From Actinomycetospora soli (GTDB taxonomy: Bacteria > Actinomycetota > Actinomycetes > Mycobacteriales > Pseudonocardiaceae): a DNA stretch of 64,000 nucleotides. The notes below the pieces were generated by a model. It saw only the letters and a program-made list of their open reading frames with translations. It made no database searches and was not told the origin of the DNA. The DNA is taken from assembly GCF_021026295.1 (NCBI RefSeq), contig NZ_JAJNDA010000005.1:62001-126000 (forward strand), written 5' to 3'. Shown in pieces: positions 35,188 to 40,227 of this stretch (positions are counted from its first letter, which is position 1; each line of letters opens with the position of its first letter). The translations under genes were made by a program, and so were the position numbers.

Positions 35188-35685
35188 ATGAGCGGGACGT
35201 TCTCGGTGGTCATCGGGATCGCGGTGCTGGCCTGGGTGATCTGGAACCAGGTGCGGGTCCGGGAGTTCACGCCGCGGCGGGTGCGGATCGCCGGGATCCT
35301 CGGGCTCGTCGGCCTGGTCCAGCTCGTGCAGGCCGCCGCCGGGCAGTCGGTGTCGACGATCGGGTGGGCGCTGCTGATCACCGGTCTCGTGGTCGGCGCG
35401 GCGCTCGGCCTGCTCCGGGCCGCGACCGTGGACCTGTGGGTGGCCGACGGCACCGTGTACACGCAGGGCCACTGGGCGACCGCCGCGCTCTGGCTCGTCG
35501 GGATGGGGGCGCACGTGGGCCTGGACCTCCTGGCCCGGGTGGTCGCACCGTCGGCCGCCACGGTGAACGCGTCGAGCATCGTGCTGTTCATCGCCGTCGG
35601 CCTCGGCACGCAGGCCCTGGTGACGATGCAGCGGGCGCGCAGCCTGCCGGGCGTTCCGGCGACGACGCCGGAGCGGGTCCGCTGA
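35188..35685 (+). CDS. Four-span membrane protein, unknown
   Basis: A 165-residue integral membrane protein with hydrophobic segments around 5-20, 33-50, 57-78 and 100-150, and conserved-looking RVREFTPRRVRIAGILGLVG at the first loop. Resembles actinobacterial DUF1453-like or CcdC-type small membrane proteins, but this is not certain. The SD gagaggggcagag precedes ATG 35188. It shares an upstream motif with two two-component operons, so may respond to envelope stress. Confidence 0.75.
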   Translation: MSGTFSVVIGIAVLAWVIWNQVRVREFTPRRVRIAGILGLVGLVQLVQAAAGQSVSTIGWALLITGLVVGAALGLLRAATVDLWVADGTVYTQGHWATAALWLVGMGAHVGLDLLARVVAPSAATVNASSIVLFIAVGLGTQALVTMQRARSLPGVPATTPERVR

Positions 35686-35719
35686 CGTCTCCCGCCGTCA
35701 CCAAGCTATAGCGGCTGAC

Positions 35720-35738
35720 GGGGCTTGCGGCAAGCCCC
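35720..35738. promoter_or_regulatory. Rifamycin-associated element (RAE)
   Basis: GGGGCTTGCGGCAAGCCCC is a perfect inverted repeat, differing at one base from the RAE consensus found before rifamycin-inactivating genes in actinomycetes. It is 56 bp upstream of the rifampin phosphotransferase start. Confidence 0.88.
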
Positions 35739-35794
35739 GGGCGGTACTCCACGATCTCCGCTCGACGTCGGGGGACGTCGCGGAGGGGGAGCGG

Positions 35795-38293
35795 ATGAGC
35801 TACGTCCTGGACCTGCACGAGATCGACCGGAGCCGTGCCGGCGAGGTCGGCGGCAAGGCCGTGAACCTGGGGGAGCTGACGCGGATCCCCGGGGTCCGCG
35901 TGCCGCCGGGGTCCTGCGTGACGACGGCGGCCTTCCGGCGGGTGCTGGCGGGATCCCCGCACCTCGCGGAGCGCATCGCGCGCCTGGGGGACCTGGCGCC
36001 CGACGACCGCGGGGCCGTCGCGGCGGCGAGCGCCGCGATCCGGGAGGAGATCGTCCGCCTGCCCGTGCCCGACGACGTCGCCACGGCGATCGCCGCCCTC
36101 GCCACGAGGGACGGGCGGGTCGCCGTCCGCTCCAGCGCGACCGCCGAGGACCTCCCGACCGCCTCGTTCGCGGGCCAGCAGGACACCTACCTCGACGTCG
36201 CCGCCGCGGACGTCCCGGACCGGGTCCGCCGGTGCTGGGCGTCGCTGTTCACCGACCGCGCCACCACCTACCGGCTCCGGCAGGGCATCGACCACCGCGC
36301 GGTGGCGATGGCCGTGGTCGTGCAGGAGATGGTGCCGGCGGAGGCCTCGGGGGTGCTCTTCACGGCCGACCCGGTCACCTCCCACCGGCGGGTGGCCGCC
36401 GTCGAGGCCGTGGCCGGGCTCGGGGAGGCCTTGGTCTCGGGGACGGCCGAGCCGGACCGGTGGACCGTCCGCGACGGGGCCGTCCTCGAGACGGCCGGGA
36501 CCGGCGGCGTCCTGAGCGAGGCACAGGTCGTGGCGCTGGTCGAGCTGGGCCGGCGGATCGAGGCGGCCCTCGGGTGCCCGCAGGACATCGAGTGGTGCCT
36601 GGCCGACGGCGGGTTCGCGGTGGTGCAGAGCCGCCCGATCACCACGCTCTTCCCGGTGCCGCCGGTCGACGACGACCGCCTGCACGTCTTCGTGTCGGTC
36701 GGACACCAGCAGATGATGACCGACGCCATGACGCCGCTCGGGCTCTCGGTGTGGCAGCTGACGACGCCCCGACCGATGGCGGAGGCCGGCAGCCGCCTGT
36801 TCGTCGACGTGACCGACGCGTTGGCGTCACCGCCGGCCCGCGCGGCGCTCCTGGCGGTCATGGGCCGCGGGGACCCGTTGGTCCGCGACGCGCTGGAGAC
36901 CGTCCTCGCGCGCGGGGAGGTCGCCACCGCCCCCGACGACGGACGGGGTGCGCCGCCCGCGGCGCCGGAGATGCTCGACGCGGACCCCGCCCTGGTCGCC
37001 GACCTCGTCGCCGAGGCCCGGGCCTCCGTCGCGACCGCGGCCCGCGAGATCGCGACGCACCACGGCGCGGACCTGTTCGCGTTCGTCCTCGCCGACCTGC
37101 ACGAGCTGCGCCGCCTGCTGTTCGACCCGCGCAGCCACCGCGTGTTCACGACGGCGATGGAGGCGGCGTACTGGCTCGACGAGCACGTGGGCGCGTGGCT
37201 GGGGGAGACCGCCGTCTCCGACACGCTCACGCTCGCCGTGCCCGACGACGTGACCGCGCAGATGGGGACGGCCCTGCTCGACGTCGCCGACGTCGTCCGG
37301 GCCCGGCCGGCGGTGGTGGCCTTCCTCCGGGGGCTCGCGGACGACGACGGGCTCGACGGGATGCTCCACGTCGACGGCGGCCCCGCGGCGCACGCCGCGC
37401 TGCAGGACTTCCTCGACGCCTACGGGGCCCGCTGCGTCGGCGAGATCGACGTCAGCCGTCCGCGGTGGGCCGACCGTCCCACGGCACTCGTCCCGATGCT
37501 CCTCGGCCACGTCGAGCACGCGGAGCCCGGCGCCGGCCCAGGTCGGGTGGAGGAGGGGCGCCGAGCGGCGCAGCGGACGCGCGACGCGGTGCTCGCGCGG
37601 CTGCGGGACCTGCCCGACGGCGAGCGGAAGGCCGCCGACACCGCGGCGATGATCGACCGGCTCCGCGCCTTCATGGGTTATCGCGAGTACCCCAAGTTCG
37701 CGATGATCCGGCGCTACGCCCTGTACCGCCGCGCGCTGTGGGACGAGGCGGCGCGGCTGGTCGGGGCGGGCGTGCTGGACCGGGCCGACGACGTCGCGCT
37801 CCTGCGCTTCGACGAGCTCCACGACGTGGTCCGCACGGGCCGGGTGGACCGGGCCCTGCTCGAGCGGCGGCGCCACGACCTCGCCGTCGCGCGGACCCTG
37901 TCCCCGCCGCGGGTGCTCACCTCGGACGGCGAGGCGCTGTCTGGAGCCTTCCGGCGCGACGACCTCCCGGCCGGCGCCCTCGCCGGGCTCCCGGTCTCAC
38001 GGGGCGTCGTCGAGGGCCGTGCCCGGGTGGTGCTCGACCTCGCGGACGCCGTGTTCGCGCCGGGCGACATCCTGGTCACGGCATTCACCGACCCCAGCTG
38101 GTCCCCGGCGTTCGTCGCGGTCGCGGGCCTGGTCACCGAGGTCGGCGGCGCCATGACCCACGGCGCCGTCGTCGCCCGGGAGTACGGCCTGCCCGCGGTC
38201 GTCGGGGTCGGGATCGCCACGCGGCGGATCACCGACGGGCAGCGGATCCGGGTCGACGGGACGACCGGGACGGTGGAGCTGCTGGACGGTTGA
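35795..38293 (+). CDS. rph: Rifampin phosphotransferase
   Basis: An 832-residue three-domain enzyme colinear with the Rph family, which uses ATP to phosphorylate rifamycins at C21 and inactivate them. N-terminal ATP-grasp-like domain: VGGKAVNLGELTRIPG, AVRSSATAEDLPTASFAGQQ and QDIEWCLADGGF. Central rifamycin-binding domain: FVSVGHQQMMTDAMTPLGLS and YREYPKFAMIRRYALY. C-terminal swivel: EVGGAMTHGAVVAREYGLPA with catalytic His789. All key segments are intact. PEP synthase is a distant alternative, made unlikely by these segments and by the RAE upstream. Confidence 0.95.
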   Translation: MSYVLDLHEIDRSRAGEVGGKAVNLGELTRIPGVRVPPGSCVTTAAFRRVLAGSPHLAERIARLGDLAPDDRGAVAAASAAIREEIVRLPVPDDVATAIAALATRDGRVAVRSSATAEDLPTASFAGQQDTYLDVAAADVPDRVRRCWASLFTDRATTYRLRQGIDHRAVAMAVVVQEMVPAEASGVLFTADPVTSHRRVAAVEAVAGLGEALVSGTAEPDRWTVRDGAVLETAGTGGVLSEAQVVALVELGRRIEAALGCPQDIEWCLADGGFAVVQSRPITTLFPVPPVDDDRLHVFVSVGHQQMMTDAMTPLGLSVWQLTTPRPMAEAGSRLFVDVTDALASPPARAALLAVMGRGDPLVRDALETVLARGEVATAPDDGRGAPPAAPEMLDADPALVADLVAEARASVATAAREIATHHGADLFAFVLADLHELRRLLFDPRSHRVFTTAMEAAYWLDEHVGAWLGETAVSDTLTLAVPDDVTAQMGTALLDVADVVRARPAVVAFLRGLADDDGLDGMLHVDGGPAAHAALQDFLDAYGARCVGEIDVSRPRWADRPTALVPMLLGHVEHAEPGAGPGRVEEGRRAAQRTRDAVLARLRDLPDGERKAADTAAMIDRLRAFMGYREYPKFAMIRRYALYRRALWDEAARLVGAGVLDRADDVALLRFDELHDVVRTGRVDRALLERRRHDLAVARTLSPPRVLTSDGEALSGAFRRDDLPAGALAGLPVSRGVVEGRARVVLDLADAVFAPGDILVTAFTDPSWSPAFVAVAGLVTEVGGAMTHGAVVAREYGLPAVVGVGIATRRITDGQRIRVDGTTGTVELLDG

Positions 38294-38304: not shown

Positions 38305-38973
38305 TCACCGCACCAGGCCCGCGCGGAACGCCAGCGCCACCGCCTGCACCCGGTCGCGGGAGCCGGTCTTCGCGAGGACGTGGCCGACGTGCGTCTTCAC
38401 GGTCGCCTCGCTGACGACGTGGCGTGCGGCGATCTCGGCGTTCGTGAGGCCCTCGCCCATGAGCACGAGGACCTCCCGCTCGCGGGGCGTCAGGTGCTCG
38501 AGCCCGGGTGCCCCGCCGGCCTCCGGTGCCGCGCCCGGCGACGACCCCGCGAGCAGGGGAGCGGCGTGCGCGAGGAGCCGGCGGGTGGAGACCGGGTCGA
38601 TCACGGAGTCGCCCCGGGCGACGGTGCGGACCGCCTCGATCAGGTCCGCCGGCGCGGCGTCCTTGAGCAGGAAGCCGCTCGCCCCGGCGGCGATCGCGGC
38701 GGTCACCGACTCGTCGAGGTCGAAGGTCGTCAGCACCACGACCCGGACGCCGGGGTGGGCTGCGACGACCTGTCGGGTCGCCTCGATCCCGTCGAGGACC
38801 GGCATGCGCACGTCCATGAGCACGACGTCCACCTCGGTGGTCGCCAGCAGGTCGAGCGCCTCCCGGCCGTCGCCGGCCTGCGCGACGACGGTGAGGTCGT
38901 CGACCGACTCCAGGACCATCGCGAACCCGGCCCGGACCAGGTGCTGGTCGTCGACGAGCAGGACGCGCAGCAC
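38305..38973 (-). CDS. NarL/LuxR-family response regulator
   Basis: A 222-residue regulator: LLVDDQHLVRAG, phosphoacceptor in VVLMDVRMPVLDG, LTTFDLDES, FLLKD, then after an Ala/Pro-rich linker the LuxR domain LTPREREVLVLMGEGLTNAE with EATVKTHVGHVLAKTG. It is 3 bp downstream of its kinase gene and converges with rph. Output is probably the RDD-kinase-regulator operon itself and unknown targets. Confidence 0.93.
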   Translation of the reverse strand: MLRVLLVDDQHLVRAGFAMVLESVDDLTVVAQAGDGREALDLLATTEVDVVLMDVRMPVLDGIEATRQVVAAHPGVRVVVLTTFDLDESVTAAIAAGASGFLLKDAAPADLIEAVRTVARGDSVIDPVSTRRLLAHAAPLLAGSSPGAAPEAGGAPGLEHLTPREREVLVLMGEGLTNAEIAARHVVSEATVKTHVGHVLAKTGSRDRVQAVALAFRAGLVR

Positions 38974-38976
38974 CGG

Positions 38977-40227
38977 TCAGGCCGTCCCGACCGGCAGCGG
39001 CAGGCGCATCCGGACCGCGAACCCGCCCTCGGGACGGGGCCCGGCGTCGAGCGAGCCGCCCTGCAGGGCCGCGCGCTCGCGCATGCCGACGAGGCCGTGG
39101 CCGCCGTGGCCGCCGTGGCCGCCGTGGCCGCCGCGGGTGACGGCGGGGCGGGCGCCCCGCGGGCCGTCGTCGCGCACGGCGACCTCGAGCTCGGGTCCCC
39201 ACGCGAGGGTGACGCGGGTCGGCGTCGCGACGCCGGCGTGCTCGACCACGTTGGTGAGTCCCTCCTGGACGACGCGGTACACGGTCAGTCCGGTCGCTGC
39301 CGGCAGCGCGCGGGGTGTGCCGGTGACCTCCAGCGTGACGGGCAGGCCGCCCGCGCGGACCTGCGCGACGAGCGCCGGGACGTCGTCGACGGTCGGCGGG
39401 GCGGCCTCCTCGAGGTCGTCGACGCGGTCGTCGCGCAGGGTGCCGAGCAGCCCGCGGATGTCGCCGAGGGCGCCGCGGCCCGCGTCGGCGATGCCCCCGA
39501 GGACCTCGACGGCCCTCTGCGGGTCCCGCTCGGCGGCGAACCGCCCGCCGTCGGCCTGGGCGATGATCCCGGAGAGCGCGTGCCCGACGATGTCGTGCAC
39601 CTCGCGGGAGATGCGGGAGCGCTCGGCGAGCAGCTCCAGGCGGACCTCCCGACGACGGCCCTCCTCGAGCAGGCGGGCCCGCTCGCGCAGCTGCGCGACC
39701 GACCGGAGCTGGGCGCGCCGCAGCGCCCCGAGCAGCCAGACGATGATCCCGAACAGCGCGCCGACCAGCGCGAGGACGCCGGCGGCGGACCCGACGCCCG
39801 GTGCCCCGAGCCGCAGGACCAGCGGCAGCACCGCGCCCAGCACGAGCACCGCCGCCGTGACCGGTCCGGCCCAGCGGGGACCGTGGACGACCACCGAGTA
39901 GCCGATCACGAGCACGGGCAGCACGATCGTCGCGCTGACCCCGGGCGCGACGATGGTCGCGAGGGCGGCGGCGACCGCGACGCCCACGGCGACCGGGAGC
40001 GGGTACCGGCGCCGCACGATCACGGGCAGCGCGAACAGCACGGCGCAGACGATGCCGGCGACGCGGTCGGCCCGCGCCACGTGCCCGTCGGTCGCCCAGC
40101 CCAGCGAGACGGCGGCGACGAGCGCGGCCAGCGCACCGTCGGCCACGACCGGGTGGCGTCGGACGAGGCCGAGGGCCCGGTCGAGCGCCGTGGGTCGTTC
40201 GGGAACGGAGATCATGACCCGGGTCAT
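38977..40227 (-). CDS. Membrane sensor histidine kinase with repeat-expanded ATP lid
   Basis: A 416-residue NarL-partner kinase: about six hydrophobic helices in the first 165 residues, a coiled coil, HisKA_3 box SRISREVHDIVGHALSGIIA, HATPase N-box QEGLTNVVEHAG and G-box GLVGMRERAALQGG. Before the G-box the protein carries GGH four times, encoded by a 9-bp DNA repeat at 39094-39129, lengthening the Gly-rich ATP-lid segment. The ATG at 40227 was used; ATG 40215 is an alternative. Cotranscribed with the RDD protein upstream. Confidence 0.9.
   Translation of the reverse strand: MTRVMISVPERPTALDRALGLVRRHPVVADGALAALVAAVSLGWATDGHVARADRVAGIVCAVLFALPVIVRRRYPLPVAVGVAVAAALATIVAPGVSATIVLPVLVIGYSVVVHGPRWAGPVTAAVLVLGAVLPLVLRLGAPGVGSAAGVLALVGALFGIIVWLLGALRRAQLRSVAQLRERARLLEEGRRREVRLELLAERSRISREVHDIVGHALSGIIAQADGGRFAAERDPQRAVEVLGGIADAGRGALGDIRGLLGTLRDDRVDDLEEAAPPTVDDVPALVAQVRAGGLPVTLEVTGTPRALPAATGLTVYRVVQEGLTNVVEHAGVATPTRVTLAWGPELEVAVRDDGPRGARPAVTRGGHGGHGGHGGHGLVGMRERAALQGGSLDAGPRPEGGFAVRMRLPLPVGTA
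39094..39129. repeat. 9-bp tandem repeat gccgtggcc, four copies
   Basis: Exact copies at 39094, 39103, 39112 and 39121 followed by a variant. In frame on the minus strand it encodes GGH units in the kinase ATP lid. Confidence 0.9.

Follow-up and report, generated by a model that had tools for sequence, protein, structure and literature searches.

The window analysed here, a stretch of 64,000 nucleotides from Actinomycetospora soli, contains what we consider, with a probability of roughly 0.6, to be a rifamycin-responsive resistance unit, in which divergent and overlapping sense and antisense promoters are arranged around the palindrome of a rifamycin-associated element (RAE). In the mechanism that we propose, the rifamycin phosphotransferase gene rph would be transcribed from a weak sense promoter whose -35 lies within the palindrome and whose -10 (CACGAT) follows it, while a stronger antisense promoter (-10 TAGCTT), facing away from the gene, would use the other half of the palindrome. 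RNA polymerase would be able to occupy only one of these promoters at a time. When no drug is present the antisense promoter, possibly together with a palindrome-bound protein, would hold the sense promoter quiet, and low rifamycin would move the balance toward the sense promoter. The enzyme would then pass phosphate from ATP via His789 to the C21 hydroxyl of rifamycins, which inactivates them. The element, the frame in which it lies and the residues of the enzyme were read from the sequence, the induction and the chemistry are taken from the literature on relatives, and the antisense promoter we infer. RAE genes are rifampicin-induced in other species, and for the source strain we predict rifamycin-inducible inactivation at a high level. 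The features of the unit are collected in Table 1.

Table 1. Features of the predicted rifamycin-responsive unit, in window positions.
Feature	Position	Strand	Basis
Predicted start of antisense RNA (G at 35696) and its first 8 nt	35689..35696	-	predicted
Antisense -10, TAGCTT	35703..35708	-	TAnnnT at the same spacing in 98% of 148 sites
RAE palindrome, GGGGCTTGCGGCAAGCCCC	35720..35738	+	matches exactly; conserved among loci of rph, helR, rox, rgt and arr
Candidate sense -35, TTGCGG, inside the RAE	35725..35730	+	19 bp from sense -10
Candidate antisense -35, TTGCCG, inside the RAE	35728..35733	-	19 bp from antisense -10; predicted
Sense -10, CACGAT, weak (C for T at first position)	35750..35755	+	nAnnnT spacing, 148 sites
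Ribosome-binding site before rph start, GGAGGGGG	35782..35789	+	read from sequence
rph, rifamycin-inactivating phosphotransferase, 832 aa	35795..38293	+	NF041857, 5FBS match, residues, predicted fold
Site lacking about 28 ATP-grasp residues of RPH-Lm (about 238-265)	36485..36508	+	sequence comparison

The RAE and its conserved flanks

The RAE and rph of the window are a known element and a known gene. The 19-bp sequence GGGGCTTGCGGCAAGCCCC is a perfect 9-bp palindrome with a central G. It is separated by 34 bp from a small membrane-protein-like ORF upstream (35188-35685) and by 56 bp from the ATG of rph downstream. A search for it in shuffled windows gave 0.03 matches at up to three mismatches. 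The sole difference from GGGGCTTGCGGCAAGACCC, the commonest form among 99 non-redundant sites, is at position 16, the most variable RAE position in the same set. The RAE pattern occurred in exact form in 161 of the 299 genomes of the order, and the reversed control once each in 2 genomes. When named genomes were scanned, RAEs stood in front of genes of the helR, rox, rph, rgt and arr types; most true rph genes had one, whereas rph paralogues (35-46% identity) lacked it.

To describe the surroundings of the palindrome, the 99 non-redundant sites, which represent five gene families, were oriented by gene and aligned on it. Conservation began 31 bp upstream of the palindrome and ended about 26 bp downstream of it. 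On the upstream side A-17 was invariant and T-13, A-12 and C-8 were nearly so, as were A+13 and T+17 on the downstream side. In a larger set of 148 non-redundant sites the RAE formed the core of a frame of about 75 bp with fixed spacing. A flank-only score, which uses no base of the RAE and was trained on helR and rox sites, ranged from 13 to 68 for held-out rph, rgt and arr sites and from -40 to -74 for pattern matches in unrelated phyla. Position 35720 scored 23.7 and ranked first of 127,848 positions in the window (next best -6.4; mean -61, sd 12). Since this score draws on bases that the preliminary description of this DNA had left unused, it confirms the window RAE; a chance origin of the palindrome is excluded because the flanks independently match those of helR and rox RAEs. 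The RAE claimed in that description to stand before rph is thus a true one, by exact match and by its flanks.

The source genome was searched with a sequence-only model of a 76-bp frame, which returned two sites, namely that of the window and a second one on the minus strand (G000:C33:193348-193416, L251; 36.3 bits, E 2e-8). The palindrome of this second RAE, GGGACTTGCCACAAGACGG, is degenerate and was missed by the 19-bp search at 3 mismatches. It precedes a rifampin-monooxygenase homologue, whose score against NF033145 was 646 bits (below the cut-off of 800). The pairing of a degenerate RAE with such a homologue recurs in congeners. Frame sites were present in 18 of 18 genomes of the genus. 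With the 19-bp pattern, the window site was the only match in the source genome at 0-1 mismatch; a palindrome with 2 mismatches on contig C18, near which no rifamycin gene was seen, was taken as a chance match. An earlier suggestion to look for further RAEs before helR or monooxygenase genes was therefore fruitful for the monooxygenase homologue, but not for helR: the genome has one helD-like gene, which scored 377 bits, under the HelR cut-off of 750, and which has no RAE. No arr gene was found in the source genome.

Some RAE sites were observed in unusual settings. Two of them are linked to arr-like genes on contigs labelled as Xanthomonadaceae (a metagenome-assembled genome; L135:7627-7645) and Aerophototrophica (L141:4874-4892), of which the former has the full frame and an antisense terminator. 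This suggests either transfer beyond Actinomycetota or misassigned contigs. At two other loci (L155 and L157) RAE frames with high flank scores lie next to ORFs (413-442 aa) without a Pfam or NCBIfam match, which are possibly mere reading-frame artefacts; L157 has two RAEs in opposite orientation.

Two predicted -10 elements and an exchangeable palindrome

The upstream conserved block reads as minus-strand TAnnnT in 98% of the 148 sites, including 29 of 29 mycobacterium-like sites. We read it as a -10 because positions 1, 2 and 6 (T1, A2, T6) are fixed while positions 3-5 vary between lineages: most genera have TACGTT, TATGTT, TAAGTT or TAGCTT, and many mycobacterium-like sites TATAGT or TACAGT. 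On the downstream side, 99% of the 148 sites have a plus-strand nAnnnT, in most of them with C and not T as its first base, so that CAnnnT is the commonest sense -10 form; a sense TAnnnT was found in at most 7% of these sites at every offset. Both -10 elements are spaced 19 bp from a TTGC hexamer within the palindrome and are equidistant from its centre.

Further conserved features coincide with the predicted start of the antisense RNA. A G stands at this start in 140 of the 148 sites; the predicted RNA is conserved over its initial eight bases, and conservation ends at the outer edge of the block. In 34 of the 148 sites an antisense-strand hairpin followed by a T-rich tail, as in an intrinsic terminator, starts at or beside the predicted-start G; shuffling the distal halves gave an expectation of 1.8 such sites, and exchanging them one of 9.7. 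The simplest reading of these patterns is that an antisense promoter with a near-consensus -10 would lie opposite a sense promoter whose weakness is built in. An RNA hairpin formed by the RAE was also considered as the chief signal. Its predicted fold is good, but the same holds for any DNA palindrome, so this candidate was rejected as non-discriminating.

The palindrome itself proved less constant than the two -10 elements. Among 27 rph genes of the class, sampled by gene rather than by element, 16 had the RAE frame, 1 a degraded form and 5 none, while the remaining 5, all from one family (L274-L276, L278 and L280), retained the frame with a different palindrome, built around CTCATGAG. Of 121 genomes of that family, 11 had this form, in each case in front of rph (L286-L296, locus centres), and all 11 sites had an antisense TAnnnT and a sense CATACT. 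Seven of these 11 genomes have ordinary RAE frames elsewhere, and in the CTCATGAG genomes and their close relatives the ordinary frames precede helR, rox and rgt. In some rph genes, with both -10 elements retained, the palindrome has no TTGC. The comparison suggests that the two -10 elements are the constant part of the frame and that the palindrome is exchangeable. Such exchange fits better with a protein that binds the palindrome than with a palindrome that serves solely to supply two -35 elements; likewise, the palindromes without TTGC make the -35 role uncertain and a palindrome-binding protein plausible.

The same observations bear on an alternative that we regard as doubtful, in which a rifamycin-responsive transcription factor would act on the sense promoter with the palindrome as its operator, the upstream block would belong to the footprint of that factor or be a second protein site, and there would be no functional antisense promoter. 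The substitution of another palindrome within the frame, with both kinds coexisting in one genome, fits an operator, as does the extent of a 19-bp palindrome with conserved GGG/CCC arms, which exceeds the needs of a -35, and the literature leans toward such a factor. From a protein footprint, however, one would not expect an upstream block that is degenerate in the manner of a -10, has a G at the expected start and has terminators at that place.

The rph product and its gene neighbourhood

The divergent-promoter reading places rph under the control of the sense promoter, and the identity of its product is clear. It scored 1218.6 bits against NF041857, the curated NCBIfam model of rifamycin phosphotransferases (cut-off 999), and matched the Listeria enzyme RPH-Lm (5FBS) with an E-value of 1.5e-247. 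The six RPH-Lm entries (5HV1-5HV3 and 5FBS-5FBU) were the best PDB matches of its predicted structure (pLDDT 81), and the two proteins are the same three-domain enzyme, with about 46% identity in the structural match (5FBS, 5HV1). For RPH-Lm, the residues whose mutation abolishes resistance and the catalytic histidine have been mapped (PMC4844700). All mapped catalytic residues are present in the rph product as K21, R112, T131, R630, E631 and H789, which correspond to K22, R117, T136, R666, E667 and H825 of RPH-Lm; E266, Q278, R280, Q306 and K634 are kept as well. The model cut-off and these residues bear out the earlier claim of an intact rph with all catalytic segments.

That claim had overlooked one departure from the Listeria enzyme, namely the ATP-grasp segment of about 28 residues that the window enzyme lacks. 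This loss relative to RPH-Lm raises the prospect, which we consider improbable, that the enzyme is impaired and that the unit confers little resistance. At least five other RPHs from several genera, however, likewise lack the segment or have it much shortened, all with an RAE in front: those of two congeners (L018 and L019), of two further genera in the family (L021 and L022) and of Streptomyces camponoticapitis (L093). Its absence or shortening in these RAE-linked relatives indicates that the segment is probably dispensable. Moreover, the catalytic residues are retained, and a short hairpin closes the predicted domain.

Downstream of rph, and convergent with it, genes for a NarL-type response regulator and a histidine kinase lie on the minus strand (38305-40227). 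Among 11 rph loci tested, two-component genes adjoin rph only in the closest relative (L018). A role for them was rejected on this basis, in agreement with their earlier placement outside the RAE set.

Relation to known rifamycin-responsive systems

The window has the 19-bp palindrome of the actinobacterial RAE in the same place, before a known RAE gene type (rph), and with a sense promoter that overlaps the palindrome. The published descriptions consulted differ in presenting the element as the palindrome plus tandem sense promoters, and to this the frame adds the antisense -10, the weak sense -10 and, in some sites, an antisense terminator. At helD of M. smegmatis the RAE overlaps the -35 of the downstream sense promoter. 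A model in which P1, an upstream sense promoter, reads across the RAE and interferes with P2 until rifampicin brings relief can draw on the P1 and P2 starts reported at this gene and on a similar tandem effect known for rpoBC, but it is very improbable, given that a conserved sense -10 upstream of the RAE is absent from the 148 sites and from the 29 mycobacterium-like sites, and that TATAGC at 35707-35712, rejected as a sense -10 in favour of the antisense one, has C as its sixth base in 96% of sites.

A closer parallel to the divergent promoters is the dual-promoter rifampicin alarm of B. subtilis helD and pps (PMC12802891), in which a stronger antisense promoter, silenced by rifampicin, opposes a weaker sense promoter before rifampicin-resistance genes. 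The product of pps is the same enzyme type as that of rph, and synthesis of the antisense RNA stops at a terminator close by. The geometry is different: the B. subtilis promoters converge, whereas the predicted RAE promoters diverge and overlap through the palindrome. By analogy, the RAE frame may work like this alarm, though it is not a member of that system. Induction in B. subtilis was lost when the two promoters were made to overlap sterically (PMC12802891), which implies that simple exclusion may not suffice at the RAE and that a palindrome-bound protein may be needed.

We tentatively extend the divergent-promoter reading to the RAEs across Actinomycetota. These would be mutually exclusive promoter pairs around an exchangeable palindrome, in which a tiny and often terminated antisense RNA from a strong promoter would gauge RNA polymerase activity, and rifamycin would free the weak sense promoter without a drug-binding regulator, as a counterpart in another geometry of the convergent-promoter alarm of B. 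subtilis. Several observations speak against a divergent pair: M. smegmatis helD was reported with the upstream sense promoter P1 instead, some rph palindromes have no TTGC, and the window itself gave no support for an antisense terminator (z -0.08).

Our searches of the literature, which did not extend to subscription papers and preprints, turned up neither an antisense promoter at the RAE nor an account of the divergent-promoter architecture, the antisense terminators, the change of palindrome or the compact enzyme; we present these as additions and do not claim priority. How RAEs sense rifamycin was called unresolved as of January 2026 (PMC12802891). The frame makes this a concrete and testable question, with a predicted antisense start 24 bp upstream of the palindrome. 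The frame model also picks up degenerate RAEs that escape the 19-bp pattern and discards chance matches, which makes it better suited than that pattern to finding inducible rifamycin resistance in actinobacteria. The divergent-promoter architecture could help to explain how bacteria sense rifamycins.
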